Shown: one piece after another, positions 16,997 through 24,760 of the stretch | How positions within the stretch are numbered: position 1 is the first letter of the stretch | Layout of the letters: every line of letters starts with the position of its first letter | Source: Sulfurimonas sp. | GTDB taxonomy: Bacteria > Campylobacterota > Campylobacteria > Campylobacterales > Sulfurimonadaceae | Reading direction: 5' to 3' | DNA length: 34,797 nucleotides | NCBI RefSeq assembly: GCF_028694895.1 | Contig: NZ_JAQVKA010000012.1 | Coordinates: forward strand, 1 to 34,797 | The notes under the pieces: model-generated | What the model was told of the DNA's origin: nothing | The model's database searches: none | Seen by the model: only the letters and a program-made list of their open reading frames with translations | Program-made: the position numbers and the translations under genes

Positions 16997-18466
16997 ATGG
17001 CAAGATTAGTTGTTCTTGGTGGAGGAGTCTCCGGCCATACAGCTGCAACGTTTGCGGCAAAATGGTTAGGCTCGGCGCATGAAGTGATAGTAGTTACTCC
17101 AAACTCAAAGTGGAACTGGGTTCCTTCAAATATTTGGGTTGGAGTTGGTGAGATGAGTAAAGAGGACGTTACCTTTGATTTAGCTCCTGTATATAAAAAA
17201 GCTGGTATTAATTATAAGCAAGCAAAGGCTGTTTCAATTAATCCAGAGGGCTCTGAGTCAAGCAGTAAACCTTTTGTAACTGTAGAGTTTACCTCAAAAG
17301 GCAATGAAGGTAAAACTGAAAACATAGAGTATGATTATCTAATTAATGCGACAGGTCCTAAGTTAAACTTTGGTGCTACGCCTGGCCTTGGAGTGGGTTC
17401 TGAACTTGGAGAGTTTACAGTTTCAGTTTGTACACCTGATCATGCAGTTCATGCAAATGATGAATTTCAAAAATCAATTCAAAAGATGAAAAACGGTGAA
17501 CGTCAGAGATTTTTAGTTGGAACTGGACATGGTTTATGTACATGTCAAGGCGCTGCGTTTGAGTATATCTTCAACATAGAACATGAAATTAATAAAGCTG
17601 GTGTTCGTGATATGGCTGATTTAACATGGATTTCAAATGAGGCCTTCTTAGGCGACTTTGGTGTTGGTGGATTACATATGAAGAGTATGGGATTTGCAGT
17701 TAGCTCGAAAATATTTGCAGAATCTCTATATACAGAGAGAAACATAGATTGGATTATTGGCGCACACGTAAATAAAGTTGAAAAAGGTAAAGCTCATTAT
17801 GAACTCCTTGATGGAACAATGGGCGAAGAGGAATTTGACTTCTCTATGCTAATTCCTCCTTTTGCAGGTGTTGGACTTAAAGCATTCGCAAAAGATGGCA
17901 CAGATATCACGTCAACTGTTTTTGCACCTAATGGCTTTATGAAAGTAGATGCAAACTACTCCGCTGGCGCTTATGAGAACTGGAAGGCAAGTGACTGGCC
18001 TTCAACTTACCAAAACCCAACGTATGGCAATATGTTTGCTTGTGGTATCGCATTTGCACCTCCACATACAATCTCAAAACCAATGAGTTCTCCAAACGGA
18101 ACTCCAATCAATCCAACACCTCCTCGTACTGGTATGCCTTCTGGAATTATTGGAAAAGCTGTTGCACACAGTATTTGCGATAAGATCTTAAAAGGAGAAA
18201 ACTCTCCACTACATGAGGCTTCAATGGCTAATATGGGTGCTGCTTGTGTTGCTAGTGCTGGTAAAGGTGTGTTCACTGGAACTGCTGCTGCAATGACAAT
18301 CTACCCTGTTATCCCAGACTTTGAGAAGTATCCAGGTACTGGTCGTGATACGGATTATACTTTTGGAGAGATTGGTCTAGCTGGACATTGGATTAAACAT
18401 ATCCTTCATTATCTATTTATCTGGAAGGCTAAGTTAAAAACTGGCTGGACAATGATTCCAGAATAA
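16997..18466 (+). CDS. sqr: Sulfide:quinone oxidoreductase-like flavoprotein
   Basis: The 489-residue protein starts with an FAD-binding dinucleotide fold (VVLGGGVSGHTAATFA, residues 5-20). It has a second FAD contact (INATGP, 116-121) and a C-terminal part with amphipathic segments (GHWIKHILHYLFIWKAK) that may hold it to the membrane. Cys residues at 145, 181, 183 and 349 are placed roughly like the three redox Cys of sulfide:quinone reductases; further Cys lie at 394 and 417. It probably passes electrons from sulfide to quinone. The subtype is uncertain: the paired GLCTCQG cysteines and two long insertions set it apart from the classic enzyme. Other flavocytochrome-c-like functions are possible. 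AAGGACG precedes the ATG. Confidence 0.8.
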   Translation: MARLVVLGGGVSGHTAATFAAKWLGSAHEVIVVTPNSKWNWVPSNIWVGVGEMSKEDVTFDLAPVYKKAGINYKQAKAVSINPEGSESSSKPFVTVEFTSKGNEGKTENIEYDYLINATGPKLNFGATPGLGVGSELGEFTVSVCTPDHAVHANDEFQKSIQKMKNGERQRFLVGTGHGLCTCQGAAFEYIFNIEHEINKAGVRDMADLTWISNEAFLGDFGVGGLHMKSMGFAVSSKIFAESLYTERNIDWIIGAHVNKVEKGKAHYELLDGTMGEEEFDFSMLIPPFAGVGLKAFAKDGTDITSTVFAPNGFMKVDANYSAGAYENWKASDWPSTYQNPTYGNMFACGIAFAPPHTISKPMSSPNGTPINPTPPRTGMPSGIIGKAVAHSICDKILKGENSPLHEASMANMGAACVASAGKGVFTGTAAAMTIYPVIPDFEKYPGTGRDTDYTFGEIGLAGHWIKHILHYLFIWKAKLKTGWTMIPE

Positions 18467-18489: not shown

Positions 18490-18654
18490 ATGGAAAAAAA
18501 AGCAGAACATAATTTCAAAGCTTATGGAAAAAATTTTAATTCAATGACGCCTGGTCCTTTTGCACTTAAGCTAAGAACTTGTAAAATCTGGCAATTTATA
18601 AGATTTATTGTTATAAATATAAAGATGCTTGTCGTAGTAAGAAAAAGCCACTAA
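18490..18654 (+). CDS. Small 54-residue basic protein behind the SQR-like gene
   Basis: This short gene has a perfect AAGGAG ribosome binding site exactly 6 bases before the ATG and starts 24 bases after the SQR-like stop. The product begins polar (MEKKAEHNFKAYG), contains a PGPF segment, and ends in a hydrophobic helix with a basic tail (FIRFIVINIKMLVVVRKSH). It may associate with the membrane. No family is recognised. A hairpin follows its stop. Position and ribosome binding site suggest it is translated with the flavoprotein and could be a small accessory subunit. Confidence 0.7.
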   Translation: MEKKAEHNFKAYGKNFNSMTPGPFALKLRTCKIWQFIRFIVINIKMLVVVRKSH

Positions 18655-18716: not shown

Positions 18717-19523
18717 ATGATTAAAGAGATAGTTACCTACCCAACTCCCCCAAGTGTACAATATGCAATAGATGTAAGAGTTTTAGATGAAGAGATAGAA
18801 ACCCTTTTACAAGACTTAAAAGATACTATAAAAGCCAATTCATTAGAAGCTTTAGCAGCATTTCAAATTGGTAGTTATTACAACATAGTGGTAATTGCAA
18901 AAGAAGATGGAGAGTTTTTAGAGCTTATAAACCCGAGGGTTATAGGTCATAAAGGTAGAGTTACAACTGTAGAGAAAACCGCTTATTTTCCAAATTTAAG
19001 TGCGAACGTAACTAGGTATGAAACTATCTCTTTAGTCTATCAAGATAGAGATTTAAAACAGCGTTCACTAAAGGCTGATGGAGCTTTTAGCATATTACTG
19101 CAAAGAAAGGTTGATTATACTTTTGGTTCAACCTTTTTAAACAAGCTAAACAAAGAAGAAAGAAAACAGTTTCAAAAAAAACTAGAGTTTGGAAGTGATC
19201 TTGCAATCTCAGAGCTTTGTCCTACGACATTTAAAAGAGACTATATTATTAAACTTATCAATATAATAATGATTATAATGGCTATACTTCTCTTGGCATC
19301 TTTGTTTGTAGATGAGCCGTTATCTAAAGAGTTTTGGCATTATCAAAGTTATCTTGCTCTTAGTGCATTTAGCTTAAATATAATCTACTTTTTTTATGCG
19401 CAGTATGAAGGAAAACGTTTCACTTCATGTACGAGTTGCCAAATAGGAAACATTATAGGTACTGCAACTATATCTTTGATAAAGTTATCAGTAATTATGA
19501 TATTTTCATATCTTATAATGTAG
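18717..19523 (+). CDS. Membrane-anchored inactive peptide deformylase-like protein
   Basis: Residues 1-155 align along their length with peptide deformylase. ALAAFQ (45-50) stands for GLAATQ, LELINPRVIGHKG for the LINPE strand, the EGCLS position reads EKTAY (86-90), and QHEMDHLVG reads QRKVDYTFG (129-137). The three metal ligands (Cys, His, His) are Thr88, Arg130 and Tyr134, and the catalytic Glu is Lys131. Deformylase activity is therefore not expected. Residues 176-268 add three transmembrane helices and a CTSC pair (238-241) not found in deformylases. The ATG at 18717 has AGAGAG upstream; a GTG one codon earlier is less likely. The hybrid kinase starts 16 bases later, suggesting a joint sensory or scaffolding role (inference). 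Confidence 0.85.
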   Translation: MIKEIVTYPTPPSVQYAIDVRVLDEEIETLLQDLKDTIKANSLEALAAFQIGSYYNIVVIAKEDGEFLELINPRVIGHKGRVTTVEKTAYFPNLSANVTRYETISLVYQDRDLKQRSLKADGAFSILLQRKVDYTFGSTFLNKLNKEERKQFQKKLEFGSDLAISELCPTTFKRDYIIKLINIIMIIMAILLLASLFVDEPLSKEFWHYQSYLALSAFSLNIIYFFYAQYEGKRFTSCTSCQIGNIIGTATISLIKLSVIMIFSYLIM

Positions 19524-19539
19524 GAAAATTTTAGAATCT

Positions 19540-22194
19540 ATGAAAAAAAAGATACCAAATCTAGTAAAAAATTTAGACACTTTAAAAGGTTCAAAAGAGC
19601 TTATTTTAAAGCAGTGGTTGTCTTATGACTCTCCACAAAAAATCCTTAAGCTTCATGATATAGATAAGAATCAATTTCTAAGTGATTATGCAAACGGCGT
19701 TTTTGACTACTTTATGGGCGTAATTGCTGGTGTAGTAAATATAGGAGATTGCCCTGTTATGCGGAAGTTTCTTGCTTTTTTAAAAGGCAAAGAGATAAAA
19801 ACAGAAGAGCTTTTTGATATTTGTAGCCATTTTCGCCGCTCTATAGTTGACTTTACATATGATGCCAATATTAACTCTAAAAACCTTTTTGAAGAGATAT
19901 CTTATATGTTTGACCAAAACTTTCAAGGGCTTTTGGGATACTACACAGATACAATTTATCAAAAAGAAAAAGAGATAGATAGACACGTAAAGCTTCTTAG
20001 TGAGTATCAAAATGCGCTTGATGAGAGTGCTATTATCTCTAAAACGGATAAAGATGGAAAGATTACTTACGTTAATGATAAATATATAAGAATAAGCGGA
20101 TATGACGCAGATGAACTAATTGGAAGTTATCATAGTATTGTAAAACATCAAGATATGCCTGAGGATTATTTTAAAGATTTATGGTTTCAGCTTGAAAATA
20201 TGGGTATTTTTAGAGGCACTATAAAAAATAATAAAAAGAATGGTGATTACTTTTATGTTGATGTAACAATCGTTAAAATCGTTGATCCATATGACAACAC
20301 AACTGAGTATATCTCTATAGCAAACGACGTTACAACGCTTATAGATGCAAGACTTGAAGCACAAAAAGCATCACAAGCTAAAGAGTATTTTTTATCAAAT
20401 ATGTCGCATGAGATAAGAACCCCTCTAAACGCAATTTTAGGCTTTGTAAATCTTTTAATAGACCAAGACCTCTCAAAGCAGCATAGAAAATATCTAGAAA
20501 TTATTTTAAATAGTGGAGAAAATCTCTTAAGCATCATTAATGATATTTTGGACTTCTCAAAACTAAGAAGTGGTGAGTTTACTATTGAGCCTAGAATCTT
20601 TTCTATTCATAGTGAAATTAGCCATACATTAGAGCTTTTCGTTGCTTCTGCTAACTTAAAAGAGATTACAATCACATCTTTTATAGACCCATCAATACCT
20701 AAAGAGTTATATGCAGACTCTCTTAGAATAAAGCAGATACTCTCAAACTTTTTAAGTAATGCTATCAAGTTTACTAGAGCTAAAGGACATATACATGTCG
20801 AAGCAACTTGTAAAGATAGAATCCTTAGAGTAAGTGTTAGAGATAATGGAATCGGTATAGCAGCAGGAGACATCTCAAATATTTTTACAGCTTTCACTCA
20901 AGCTGGAGGTGCAGAGGTAGAGCATATGGTAGGAACTGGGCTAGGGCTTTCTATATGTCATCAGTTATCTCAACATATGGGCGGAATGGTTCATGTTTCA
21001 TCTGAGCTTGGTCAAGGAAGTACATTTTGGCTCGAACTTCCAGTTGAGATTCATGATAACTCTTGTCAAGTCTTTAATGATTTGGAAGAGATAAAAAAAT
21101 ATAAGAAAATTTTCTATATAAAAGATATGCAGCATGATTATAGATCAGCATCATTTTTGCGATACGCTAATATTTTTGGAATGGATATAGAGATTTCAGA
21201 GAAAATAAGAAGTGAACATGATGTAGTTATATTTTTAGAAGAGGATGTTGATGAAGAGTTTAAAGAAAAAATCATCAACTCAAATAAGAAGTATATAGCA
21301 CTGACAAATAGACCAAGTGATATATATGAGAAGTATCCACACATCTCAACTATCTGTTTTCCTCTTTACTGCTCAAAAATAAAAGCAGCGTTTGATGAGT
21401 TAAATCATCCAGATGAGGCTCCTTTACACAAACTAGAAAAAGCAAAAAAATTTAAAGGACATGTTCTAATAGCTGAAGATAATGAAGCAAATCAAGAGCT
21501 TGTTAAGATTTTACTAGAAAGATATGGGCTAACTTATGATCTTGCAAATAATGGGCTTGAAGCTGTAAATCTTTATAAAGCAAATAATTATGATTTGATT
21601 TTAATGGATGAACAGATGCCAACGATGGATGGTAACGAGGCTGTTAGAATTATTTTAGATTATGAACAAGAGAATAATTTAAGACATACTCCAATCTCAG
21701 CACTTACAGCAAATGTTATAAAAGGTGCAAAAGAGAGAGGTTTAATGAGCGGATTTGACTCATTTTTGGGCAAGCCAATAGTTATAAAAGAGTTAGAGAG
21801 AGTTTTTTCCAACTATCTAAGAGCTTCTAAGATACCAGCTCCAAACAAAAAAGTAGCAACTAAAAATAGTAGTATAGAAGGGCTTGATCTATATAAACTA
21901 ACTCAAGAGTTGATGCTTAGTGAGAGCGAACTACTTATGTTAGCTAACTTATTTATCAAAAAAATGTCAAAACAGATACCTGAGATGCAAGAAGCAATTT
22001 TAAAAAGAGATTATTCAAAAATGGCGCTTATAGCACATAGTATAAAAGGCTCAAGTGGTAACTTTAGACTAGAAGATGTGCAAGAGAGTAGCACAAAGTT
22101 TGAAAAAATGGCTAAGAAAAAGGATATCAACTACAACTATGAAGAAGCATTTAAAAAGATAAAAGATAGACTTCTGGAGATAAAAATCATATAA
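19540..22194 (+). CDS. Hybrid sensor histidine kinase (PAS-HisKA-ATPase-receiver-Hpt)
   Basis: The 884-residue soluble kinase has an all-helical N-terminal domain (about 1-145). Next come a PAS domain (about 160-275), the phospho-His domain with H290 in MSHEIRTPLNAILGF, and the ATPase domain (N box around 403-411, DNGIGI 435-440, GTGLGL 465-470). Residues ~522-625 look like a receiver fold that has lost its Asp. A true receiver follows with D690 in LILMDEQMPTMDG, and a C-terminal Hpt domain has H833 in IAHSIKGSSG. This supports a His-Asp-His phosphorelay ending on a separate regulator. It has no transmembrane helix of its own, while the gene just upstream encodes one. The separate regulator could be the convergent 22236-22985 gene product, but this is unproven. 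Confidence 0.93.
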   Translation: MKKKIPNLVKNLDTLKGSKELILKQWLSYDSPQKILKLHDIDKNQFLSDYANGVFDYFMGVIAGVVNIGDCPVMRKFLAFLKGKEIKTEELFDICSHFRRSIVDFTYDANINSKNLFEEISYMFDQNFQGLLGYYTDTIYQKEKEIDRHVKLLSEYQNALDESAIISKTDKDGKITYVNDKYIRISGYDADELIGSYHSIVKHQDMPEDYFKDLWFQLENMGIFRGTIKNNKKNGDYFYVDVTIVKIVDPYDNTTEYISIANDVTTLIDARLEAQKASQAKEYFLSNMSHEIRTPLNAILGFVNLLIDQDLSKQHRKYLEIILNSGENLLSIINDILDFSKLRSGEFTIEPRIFSIHSEISHTLELFVASANLKEITITSFIDPSIPKELYADSLRIKQILSNFLSNAIKFTRAKGHIHVEATCKDRILRVSVRDNGIGIAAGDISNIFTAFTQAGGAEVEHMVGTGLGLSICHQLSQHMGGMVHVSSELGQGSTFWLELPVEIHDNSCQVFNDLEEIKKYKKIFYIKDMQHDYRSASFLRYANIFGMDIEISEKIRSEHDVVIFLEEDVDEEFKEKIINSNKKYIALTNRPSDIYEKYPHISTICFPLYCSKIKAAFDELNHPDEAPLHKLEKAKKFKGHVLIAEDNEANQELVKILLERYGLTYDLANNGLEAVNLYKANNYDLILMDEQMPTMDGNEAVRIILDYEQENNLRHTPISALTANVIKGAKERGLMSGFDSFLGKPIVIKELERVFSNYLRASKIPAPNKKVATKNSSIEGLDLYKLTQELMLSESELLMLANLFIKKMSKQIPEMQEAILKRDYSKMALIAHSIKGSSGNFRLEDVQESSTKFEKMAKKKDINYNYEEAFKKIKDRLLEIKII

Positions 22195-22235: not shown

Positions 22236-22985
22236 CTACTTCTCTATGTAGTAGCCAATTCCTGAAGCATTTTTTATAATATCTGTTGGGAGTTTGCTTC
22301 TTAGTCTCCAAACAAGCGTTCTTATGCTGTTCTCCGTTGCTCCACTCTCTCTCCAAACATAATTTATTGCTTGTTCAAAGTTAATGATACTTCCTAGTTT
22401 TGCAACAAGAAGATGAAGTATGGCATTTTCTTTTTTTGTCAATTTTAATTTTTGATCGTTGAAGCTAATCTCTTTTTTTACAATGTTTATTGAGTAAGAA
22501 GTGCCAAAGGTAACAGTTGTACCATTTAGTTCACTTTTTTCATAAAGAAGTTTCTCTACACCTTTTTCATCTATCTTAGAAGCGCTTATCTCTTCGTATC
22601 TTTTGCACTCCATTTCAAATTTAAAAACTGCCATTTGAATAGTAGCATGAAGTGAAGATGGGTCAAAAGGCTTTACTATATAGCCATATGGTTCAGTTTT
22701 TATAGCTTCTGAGATGATATCATCATCACTATGAGAAGTTAGATATATAAAAGGAATAGAGTAATTTTGTTTTATTCTTCTACCTAGAGTTATTCCATCA
22801 CTTCCTTCTTGAAGCGAGATATCGATAAGAACAAGATGAGGTGTATGTGTTTGAACATTTTCTAAAGCATCAGGAATATTATCACAAGTTGCTAAAATTT
22901 TATAACCTTGCTTCTGTAAAGATAGTTTTAGATTTAGCGCTGTTATCTCGTCGTCTTCAACAATGATAATTGTGTGTTTTTCCAT
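22236..22985 (-). CDS. Response regulator with winged-helix output domain
   Basis: The 249-residue protein has a receiver (about 1-122) with E10/D11/D12, phospho-acceptor D55 in LVLIDISLQEGSDG, T83/S84 and K105. A linker leads to an OmpR-type winged helix (about 165-249) ending in NASGIGYYIEK. It converges on the hybrid kinase gene with a 41-base gap, making it a plausible final acceptor of that phosphorelay. The ATG has a weak AGAGAA site. The upstream region shares repeats with the divergent GNAT-nitrilase gene. Confidence 0.92.
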   Translation of the reverse strand: MEKHTIIIVEDDEITALNLKLSLQKQGYKILATCDNIPDALENVQTHTPHLVLIDISLQEGSDGITLGRRIKQNYSIPFIYLTSHSDDDIISEAIKTEPYGYIVKPFDPSSLHATIQMAVFKFEMECKRYEEISASKIDEKGVEKLLYEKSELNGTTVTFGTSYSINIVKKEISFNDQKLKLTKKENAILHLLVAKLGSIINFEQAINYVWRESGATENSIRTLVWRLRSKLPTDIIKNASGIGYYIEK

Positions 22986-23107: not shown

Positions 23108-23187
23108 ATTACACGTGTTTTTAAATTTTATTTTTAATTATAAAAAAACCATTCTTCTGCTTTTTAATTCCATCTAAATTTGTTAGT

Positions 23188-23193
23188 TATAAT
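23188..23193 (+). promoter_or_regulatory. -10 box for the GNAT-nitrilase gene
   Basis: A perfect TATAAT lies 31 bases before the ATG at 23225. It also lies downstream of the TTG at 23180, so that earlier in-frame start would be outside the transcript. Confidence 0.5.
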
Positions 23194-23224
23194 AGTATGT
23201 TTAAAATCATTAGTTGGAAAGATT

Positions 23225-24760
23225 ATGAAGATAGTTGAAGTAGAAAATATAGAATTAACATTTTTAAGTATGCAAGATTATGAAGAGTTAAAAGAGATGA
23301 TGCTTGTAGTTTACGAATCGATGCCAGAGTCGTATTGGAGTGAGAATCAGATTAAAACTTTGATAGATAAATTCTCAGAAGGGCAAGTAGTTATTAAAGT
23401 TGATGGCGAGGTAGCAGCTTGCGCGTTGTCAATCATTGTAAACTATGAAGAGTTCTCAGATAAACATACGTACAAGGAAGTAACAAGTAACTACACTTTC
23501 AACTCTCACTCAGACAGTGGAGATATGTTATACGGAATAGATGTTTTTGTAAAACCAAAGTTTAGAGGATTAAGGCTTGGAAGACGTTTATATGATTATA
23601 GAAAAGAGTTGTGTGAAAGATTAAATCTCAAAGGTATCGCCTTTGGAGGAAGAATACCAAACTATCATAAATACTCTCATGAACTATCTCCAAAAGAGTA
23701 CATAGAAAAAGTAAAAAGAAAAGAGATAAATGATCCAGTTTTAAATTTTCAGATTTCAAATGATTTTCATCCTTCTAAGATTATAAAAGGCTACCTTAAA
23801 GGGGATTCTGCATCTGGCGAGTTTGCTGTTTTGTTGGAATGGAAAAATATCTACTATGAAAAACCAAATAAAAAAGCAGCTACAAAGAAAAAAGTAGTCC
23901 GTCTTGGCCTGATTCAGTGGCAGATGCGACCATATAAAAACTTGGGCGAGTTACTTCAACAAGCAGAGTACTTTATAGATGCAGTCTCTGGATATCGATC
24001 GGATTTTGCACTATTTCCTGAATTCTTTAACGCTCCATTAATGGCAGAAAATAACCATCTCTCAGAGCCAGAAGCTATTAGAAAACTAGCAGAACATACA
24101 AAGAGCATAGTTGAGAAGTTTTCTGAGTACTCTATCTCATACAACATCAATATTATCACAGGAAGTATGCCAGAACTCAAAGATGGGAATCTTTACAATG
24201 TTGGATATTTATGCAGACGAGATGGAACTATTGAGAGATATGAGAAGATACATGTTACCCCTGATGAGGTAAGAGTATGGGGCATGCAAGGTGGTAACAA
24301 AATAGAAACATTCGATACTGACTGTGGCAAGATAGGGATACTTATATGTTATGACGCCGAGTTTCCAGAACTAAGTAGGTTACTAGCTGATGAGGGGATG
24401 GATATACTCTTTGTTCCTTTTTTAACAGATACTCAAAATGGTTATTCAAGAGTTAGACACTGCTCACAAGCCAGAGCTATTGAAAATGAGTGTTATGTGG
24501 CAATAGCTGGAAGCGTTGGCAACTTGCCAAATGTTCACAATATGGATATGCAATTTGCTCAGTCAGTGGTATTTACCCCATGTGATTTTGCATTCCCAGC
24601 AAATGGAATCAAAGCCGAAGCGACAGCAAATAGCGAAATGACACTTATAGCAGATGTAGATATAGACTTACTACGAGAGTTAAACCAATTTGGAAGTGTA
24701 AAAAACTTAAGAGATAGAAGAAAAGATTTGTTTGATTTAAAGAAAAAAACTCTTATTTAA
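23225..24760 (+). CDS. GNAT acetyltransferase / carbon-nitrogen hydrolase fusion
   Basis: The 511-residue protein joins two enzymes. Residues ~1-205 are a GNAT domain with the acetyl-CoA loop RGLRLGRRLYD (114-124). Residues ~222-500 are a nitrilase-superfamily domain with the complete triad E266 (FPEFF), K341 (EKIHVTPDE) and C375 (LICYDAEFPE). Fusions of this type are known, but their substrates are generally unassigned; the hydrolase half probably cleaves an amide. ATG 23225 with GGAAAG upstream is preferred over TTG 23180, which would put 15 non-conserved residues in front and precedes the -10 box. It is a single gene. Confidence 0.9.
   Translation: MKIVEVENIELTFLSMQDYEELKEMMLVVYESMPESYWSENQIKTLIDKFSEGQVVIKVDGEVAACALSIIVNYEEFSDKHTYKEVTSNYTFNSHSDSGDMLYGIDVFVKPKFRGLRLGRRLYDYRKELCERLNLKGIAFGGRIPNYHKYSHELSPKEYIEKVKRKEINDPVLNFQISNDFHPSKIIKGYLKGDSASGEFAVLLEWKNIYYEKPNKKAATKKKVVRLGLIQWQMRPYKNLGELLQQAEYFIDAVSGYRSDFALFPEFFNAPLMAENNHLSEPEAIRKLAEHTKSIVEKFSEYSISYNINIITGSMPELKDGNLYNVGYLCRRDGTIERYEKIHVTPDEVRVWGMQGGNKIETFDTDCGKIGILICYDAEFPELSRLLADEGMDILFVPFLTDTQNGYSRVRHCSQARAIENECYVAIAGSVGNLPNVHNMDMQFAQSVVFTPCDFAFPANGIKAEATANSEMTLIADVDIDLLRELNQFGSVKNLRDRRKDLFDLKKKTLI

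Follow-up and report, generated by a model that had tools for sequence, protein, structure and literature searches.

What use is a peptide deformylase (PDF) fold once its catalytic residues are gone and a membrane domain has been added? The question is raised by an intact open reading frame of 268 aa on the forward strand (positions 18,717–19,523) of a Sulfurimonas contig, whose whole stretch of 34,797 nucleotides is referred to here as the window. The analysis confirms that its product, below called the pseudo-deformylase, is a PDF fold without the catalytic residues that continues into a helical membrane domain. Taken as a whole, it is best explained as an accessory of the sulfide:quinone oxidoreductase (SQR) module, a pseudo-deformylase that uses its cysteines to handle or sense sulfane sulfur; we give this reading a probability of about 0.5.

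A preliminary description of this DNA had recognized a deformylase in roughly the first 155 residues, and Pfam, PDB sequence matches and structure prediction all agree. PF01327 covers residues 2–149 (E=5.4e-31; 107.7 bits against a cut-off of 22.8), the best PDB sequence matches are PDFs throughout, and the domain can be delimited to residues 1–157 (18,717–19,187, forward strand). In an AlphaFold model computed from a 72-member alignment (mean pLDDT 90.9; pTM 0.60, the orientation of the domains not being fixed by the model), residues 1–160 adopt the same fold as E. coli PDF (1icj; Z 23.7, rmsd 2.4, 160 residues aligned), and a viral structure library searched with the pseudo-deformylase returned ordinary phage deformylases only. 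The homology to Def (PF01327) is clear and extends to the motif spacing and to Gln50, Glu86, Gln129 and Asp133, which are retained. Unlike Def, the window protein lacks the three metal ligands, Glu133 and the motif-1 Gly43, and it carries a three-helix membrane domain with a cysteine triad. Alignment with E. coli PDF and the homologues places Thr88 (18,978–18,980) at the metal ligand Cys90, and Arg130-Lys131-Val132-Asp133-Tyr134 (19,104–19,118) at His132-Glu133-Met134-Asp135-His136, the HExxH motif; the two histidines become Arg130 and Tyr134 and the catalytic Glu becomes Lys131, exactly as had been read from the letters alone. Motif 1, GxGLAAxQ in PDFs, starts with Leu43 (18,843–18,845) in place of Gly43, a change that the earlier reading overlooked, as it did a third conserved cysteine and a short ORF upstream. 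Gly occupies this position in nine out of nine canonical PDFs and Leu in 117 of the 145 pseudo-deformylase homologues. The equivalent residue in AtPDF1B is Gly41, where the replacements G41M/Q lower kcat/Km about 1000-fold and a bulky side chain blocks closure of the active site (PMC3101196). The window protein falls below every NCBIfam PDF cut-off, including that of the equivalog TIGR00079 (71.8 bits against 103.95), and pseudo-deformylases and canonical deformylases form separate clades in the tree (SH-aLRT 100).

The family comprises 145 distinct members of 30–100% identity. The thorough homologue search was conducted within the phylum Campylobacterota; a scan across 84,980 species genomes picks up only close relatives, and its best 80 loci bear Campylobacterota names, bar one titled only 'bacterium'. 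Thr88, Arg130, Lys131 and Tyr134 are invariant in 94 unique close homologues (43–100% identity), and across all 145 members position 88 is T, S, D or N, position 130 R, Q, H or V, position 131 K, Q, M or T, and position 134 Y, F, M, L or I. None of the 145 has the full equivalent of the Cys90/His132/His136 set, none has Cys at 88 or His at both 130 and 134, and none has a Glu at 131, so the ligand losses, the conservation of which the preliminary description had singled out for checking, hold throughout the family. Decay or mis-assembly of a PDF gene, for which one could cite the copy in Sulfurovum mangrovi (NZ_CP087125.1; L224, 12,001–12,816) that is split into two CDS, both annotated 'peptide deformylase', is refuted by the family alignment with near certainty, because the replacements are invariant down to 43% identity and almost all of the more than 150 matches have an open reading frame. 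The earlier suggestion that the fold has been reused is thereby strongly supported. The window's own genome also encodes a normal deformylase of 175 aa with GCLS and HExDH (L167), and canonical PDFs read from eight genomes, this one and seven others, have kept GCLS and HExxH in every case. Many genomes of the order lack the family, among them every sampled member of the small-genome families f11 and f14.

The best-conserved part of the protein is not the former active site; it is a triad of cysteines, C168 and C238-x-x-C241, in and next to the membrane domain. Three transmembrane helices and a CxxC pair had been described before and are both present, while the third cysteine of the set had been missed. 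Model and transmembrane prediction place the helices at residues 174–195, 200–234 and 236–267 (19,236–19,517, forward strand). Cys168 (19,218–19,220) lies in the linker before the first helix, is followed by Pro169 and is invariant in alignment A1, and the C238-T-S-C241 motif (19,428–19,439) sits at the predicted cytosolic end of the last hairpin. Each of the three cysteines is found in 144 of 145 homologues, and in 92 members the triad accounts for every cysteine of the protein. Lys and Arg flank the putative cytosolic helix ends; the positive-inside rule therefore predicts that the PDF-like domain and the triad lie at the membrane surface on the cytosolic side, and the three cysteines are probably close together in space. 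Searched on its own for fold relatives, the membrane domain yielded nothing significant (best E about 1.3, helical bundles only), and its profile matched no PDB sequence. The FeoB-associated Cys-rich membrane proteins (PF12669) resemble it in having a transmembrane segment that adjoins a Cys pair, and match weakly in 11 of 72 membrane-domain members (best E=1.3e-4), the window member not among them. In contrast to PF12669, the pseudo-deformylase has three helices rather than one, and no FeoB gene occurs among its identified neighbours; the matches were judged chance-level, likely due to transmembrane and Cys composition.

The contrast between triad and pocket bears on the possibility that the protein binds N-formyl peptides or nascent chains without cleaving them, as had been proposed. 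Despite the retained fold and the four retained PDF residues (Gln50, Glu86, Gln129 and Asp133), this is improbable and found no support: along with the metal ligands and the catalytic Glu, the pocket has lost Gly43, where a bulky residue would prevent active-site closure as in AtPDF1B, and has gained Arg and Lys. In deep clades the pocket residues drift (S/T/D, R/Q/H, K/Q/M and Y/F/M/L/I at the four positions), whereas the triad stays constant, and the genomic partners are sulfur genes rather than translation genes.

The foremost of these partners lies immediately upstream. A 489-aa flavoprotein of the SQR family is encoded at 16,997–18,466 (forward strand; PDB 3hyv, E=3e-39), and its product is in itself ordinary. 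Cys145, Cys183 and Cys417 are near-invariant and, in the alignment with 3hyv, fall near cysteines of known SQRs that we take to be the catalytic ones. SQR is a monotopic membrane protein, and no transmembrane helix is predicted here. An SQR gene of the same orientation precedes the pseudo-deformylase in 99 of 144 homologues, at a distance of 183–563 bases; these include the whole deepest clade, and the adjacency extends over at least six families (f1, f4, f6, f7, f17, f18, f22) despite differing outer genes. A hand count over 150 genomes of the order finds SQR in each of the 47 that have a clear match to the pseudo-deformylase; none of the 64 genomes without SQR has such a match, and 39 of the 86 genomes with SQR are without the pseudo-deformylase, from which it follows that SQR does not need it; the 64 genomes have neither. 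One genome (G220) has a membrane-domain match and no detected SQR, as expected if SQR lies off the contig, since the match is at a contig edge. On the SQR tree the link seems to have been gained or lost five times, compared with 15 changes in shuffles. With so few changes, vertical descent accounts for some of the adjacency, which may largely go back to one ancient insertion. Members of one f7 clade, and some of those in the clade of a second paralogue, stand away from any sulfur gene.

Between the two genes lies an unannotated, conserved ORF of 54 aa (18,490–18,654, forward strand), preceded by AAAGGAG, a good ribosome-binding site. It is present in all 99 SQR-linked pseudo-deformylase loci and in 19 of 20 SQR loci without the pseudo-deformylase, and none was found beside the second-paralogue genes with MerR, CMD or DsrE neighbours. 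Its consensus ends in RTC-x-iwQfiRF-xx-INiKM-xx-VV-x-KSH, and it matches no entry in Pfam or NCBIfam. Judged by gene order, it accompanies SQR itself and does so almost throughout the Campylobacterota. Most pseudo-deformylase homologues are thus encoded directly downstream of SQR plus this ORF, and the protein is very probably an accessory of the SQR module.

A different partner, the hybrid histidine kinase encoded downstream, had been favoured in the preliminary description, which correctly placed its start 16 bases after the pseudo-deformylase (intergenic positions 19,524–19,539) and proposed that the two form one sensory unit. The kinase (19,540–22,194, forward strand) is predicted to be soluble, with a conserved N-terminal domain followed by PAS, HisKA, HATPase, REC and Hpt domains, and it is convergent with a gene for an OmpR-type response regulator whose position is conserved (22,236–22,985, reverse strand). 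On this proposal the pseudo-deformylase would be a membrane co-sensor, its triad or pocket sensing sulfide, polysulfide or redox state and the kinase driving the regulator; the short gap and the lack of a transmembrane segment in the kinase fit well. The adjacency is indeed conserved within the family to which the window belongs and among its close relatives, and the regulator is mostly there too. However, the kinase lies directly downstream in only 68 of 144 homologues, compared with 99 of 144 for SQR upstream. In families f4, f6, f17, f18 and f22 the pair of SQR and pseudo-deformylase persists with no adjoining kinase, and the kinase has a conserved N-terminal domain and a PAS domain of its own. 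At one locus (L204) the same type of kinase follows SQR in a genome that lacks the pseudo-deformylase. The sensory unit is weakened by these observations, the kinase was demoted as main partner once neighbourhoods were compared across families, and a co-sensor role is unlikely; the conclusion that SQR is the ancient partner and the kinase a secondary one is well supported. The N-terminal 155 residues of the kinase (19,540–20,004) form a conserved soluble domain with no Pfam match, which carries the motifs IL-x-lH-x-Id, VFDYFmgvi and iG-x-CPvM and recurs at 100 loci, many of them beside SQR. Beyond the regulator, positions 23,180–24,760 (forward strand) encode a 526-aa protein with a GNAT acetyltransferase and a carbon-nitrogen hydrolase domain.

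Two unusual settings point to the part of the protein that does the work. A clade of second pseudo-deformylase paralogues, often in the same genomes (L149, L150, L076, L085, L087, L099 and others), has as neighbours a MerR regulator, a carboxymuconolactone-decarboxylase (CMD)/AhpD-like protein with a CxxC motif and a DsrE-family protein, once more thiol or sulfur proteins, which suggests that it may belong to a cassette of its own for sulfur or thiol stress. In another genome (G332; L222 / L226), SQR and the 54-aa ORF are followed by a 98-aa protein that consists of the membrane domain alone (E=1.1e-6), with CTGC and with neither a PDF part nor the linker Cys168. Two further candidates for PDF-less copies (G224 and G220) turned out to be gene fragments at contig edges, whereas the G332 copy is real. 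Because of these two settings, the core of the protein appears to be the membrane cysteine domain and not the old active site.

The genomic evidence for an SQR accessory would equally suit a structural subunit that holds SQR at the membrane or assembles it there, with a structural metal ion (Zn or Fe-S) bound by the triad. Such a role is in line with the three invariant cysteines, which share one end of a helical hairpin, and with an SQR that has no predicted transmembrane segment. It is doubtful all the same: SQR occurs without the protein in 39 of 86 genomes, the second paralogue adjoins other genes than SQR, and three cysteines by themselves leave a tetrahedral site incomplete, so that a fourth ligand or a dimer would have to help.

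The preferred reading remains an SQR accessory that works through sulfur chemistry. The cytosolic PDF-fold domain, having lost deformylation, would now be used for docking or for binding a ligand, and the triad at the cytosolic membrane face would form the working centre, beside monotopic SQR, which the model assumes to sit on the same face. There the triad would most likely accept or sense sulfane sulfur made by SQR (persulfide or polysulfide), or switch as a thiol/disulfide pair, and so pass sulfur on or adjust SQR, presumably by direct contact. That the triad deals with sulfane sulfur chemically, as acceptor or sensor, has in our view an even chance of being right. More tentatively, the 54-aa companion and the pseudo-deformylase might make the SQR of Campylobacterota a multi-component system, in which the membrane triad, on the cytosolic side, takes up the sulfane sulfur and passes it on or signals its presence.

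Pseudo-enzymes and deformylases are each known already; the combination seen here is new. In the open-access literature we found no link of deformylase with Sulfurimonas or SQR, no pairing of deformylase with the term pseudoenzyme, and no description of a pseudo-deformylase or of a 54-aa partner of SQR. Should the SQR link prove functional, two components of sulfide oxidation have been overlooked, a membrane pseudo-enzyme and a 54-aa protein; the handling of SQR-made sulfane sulfur in the cell would become directly testable, and the family would be a clear example of how a housekeeping metalloenzyme was converted into a sulfur-metabolism module that uses no metal. The label 'peptide deformylase' is wrong in at least one database record, since the catalytic residues are replaced, and it probably hides an overlooked part of sulfide metabolism in the sulfur-oxidising Campylobacterota. 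The split copy of Sulfurovum mangrovi follows an SQR-like gene and lies on a 395-kb replicon that is called a plasmid and carries ribosomal protein genes.
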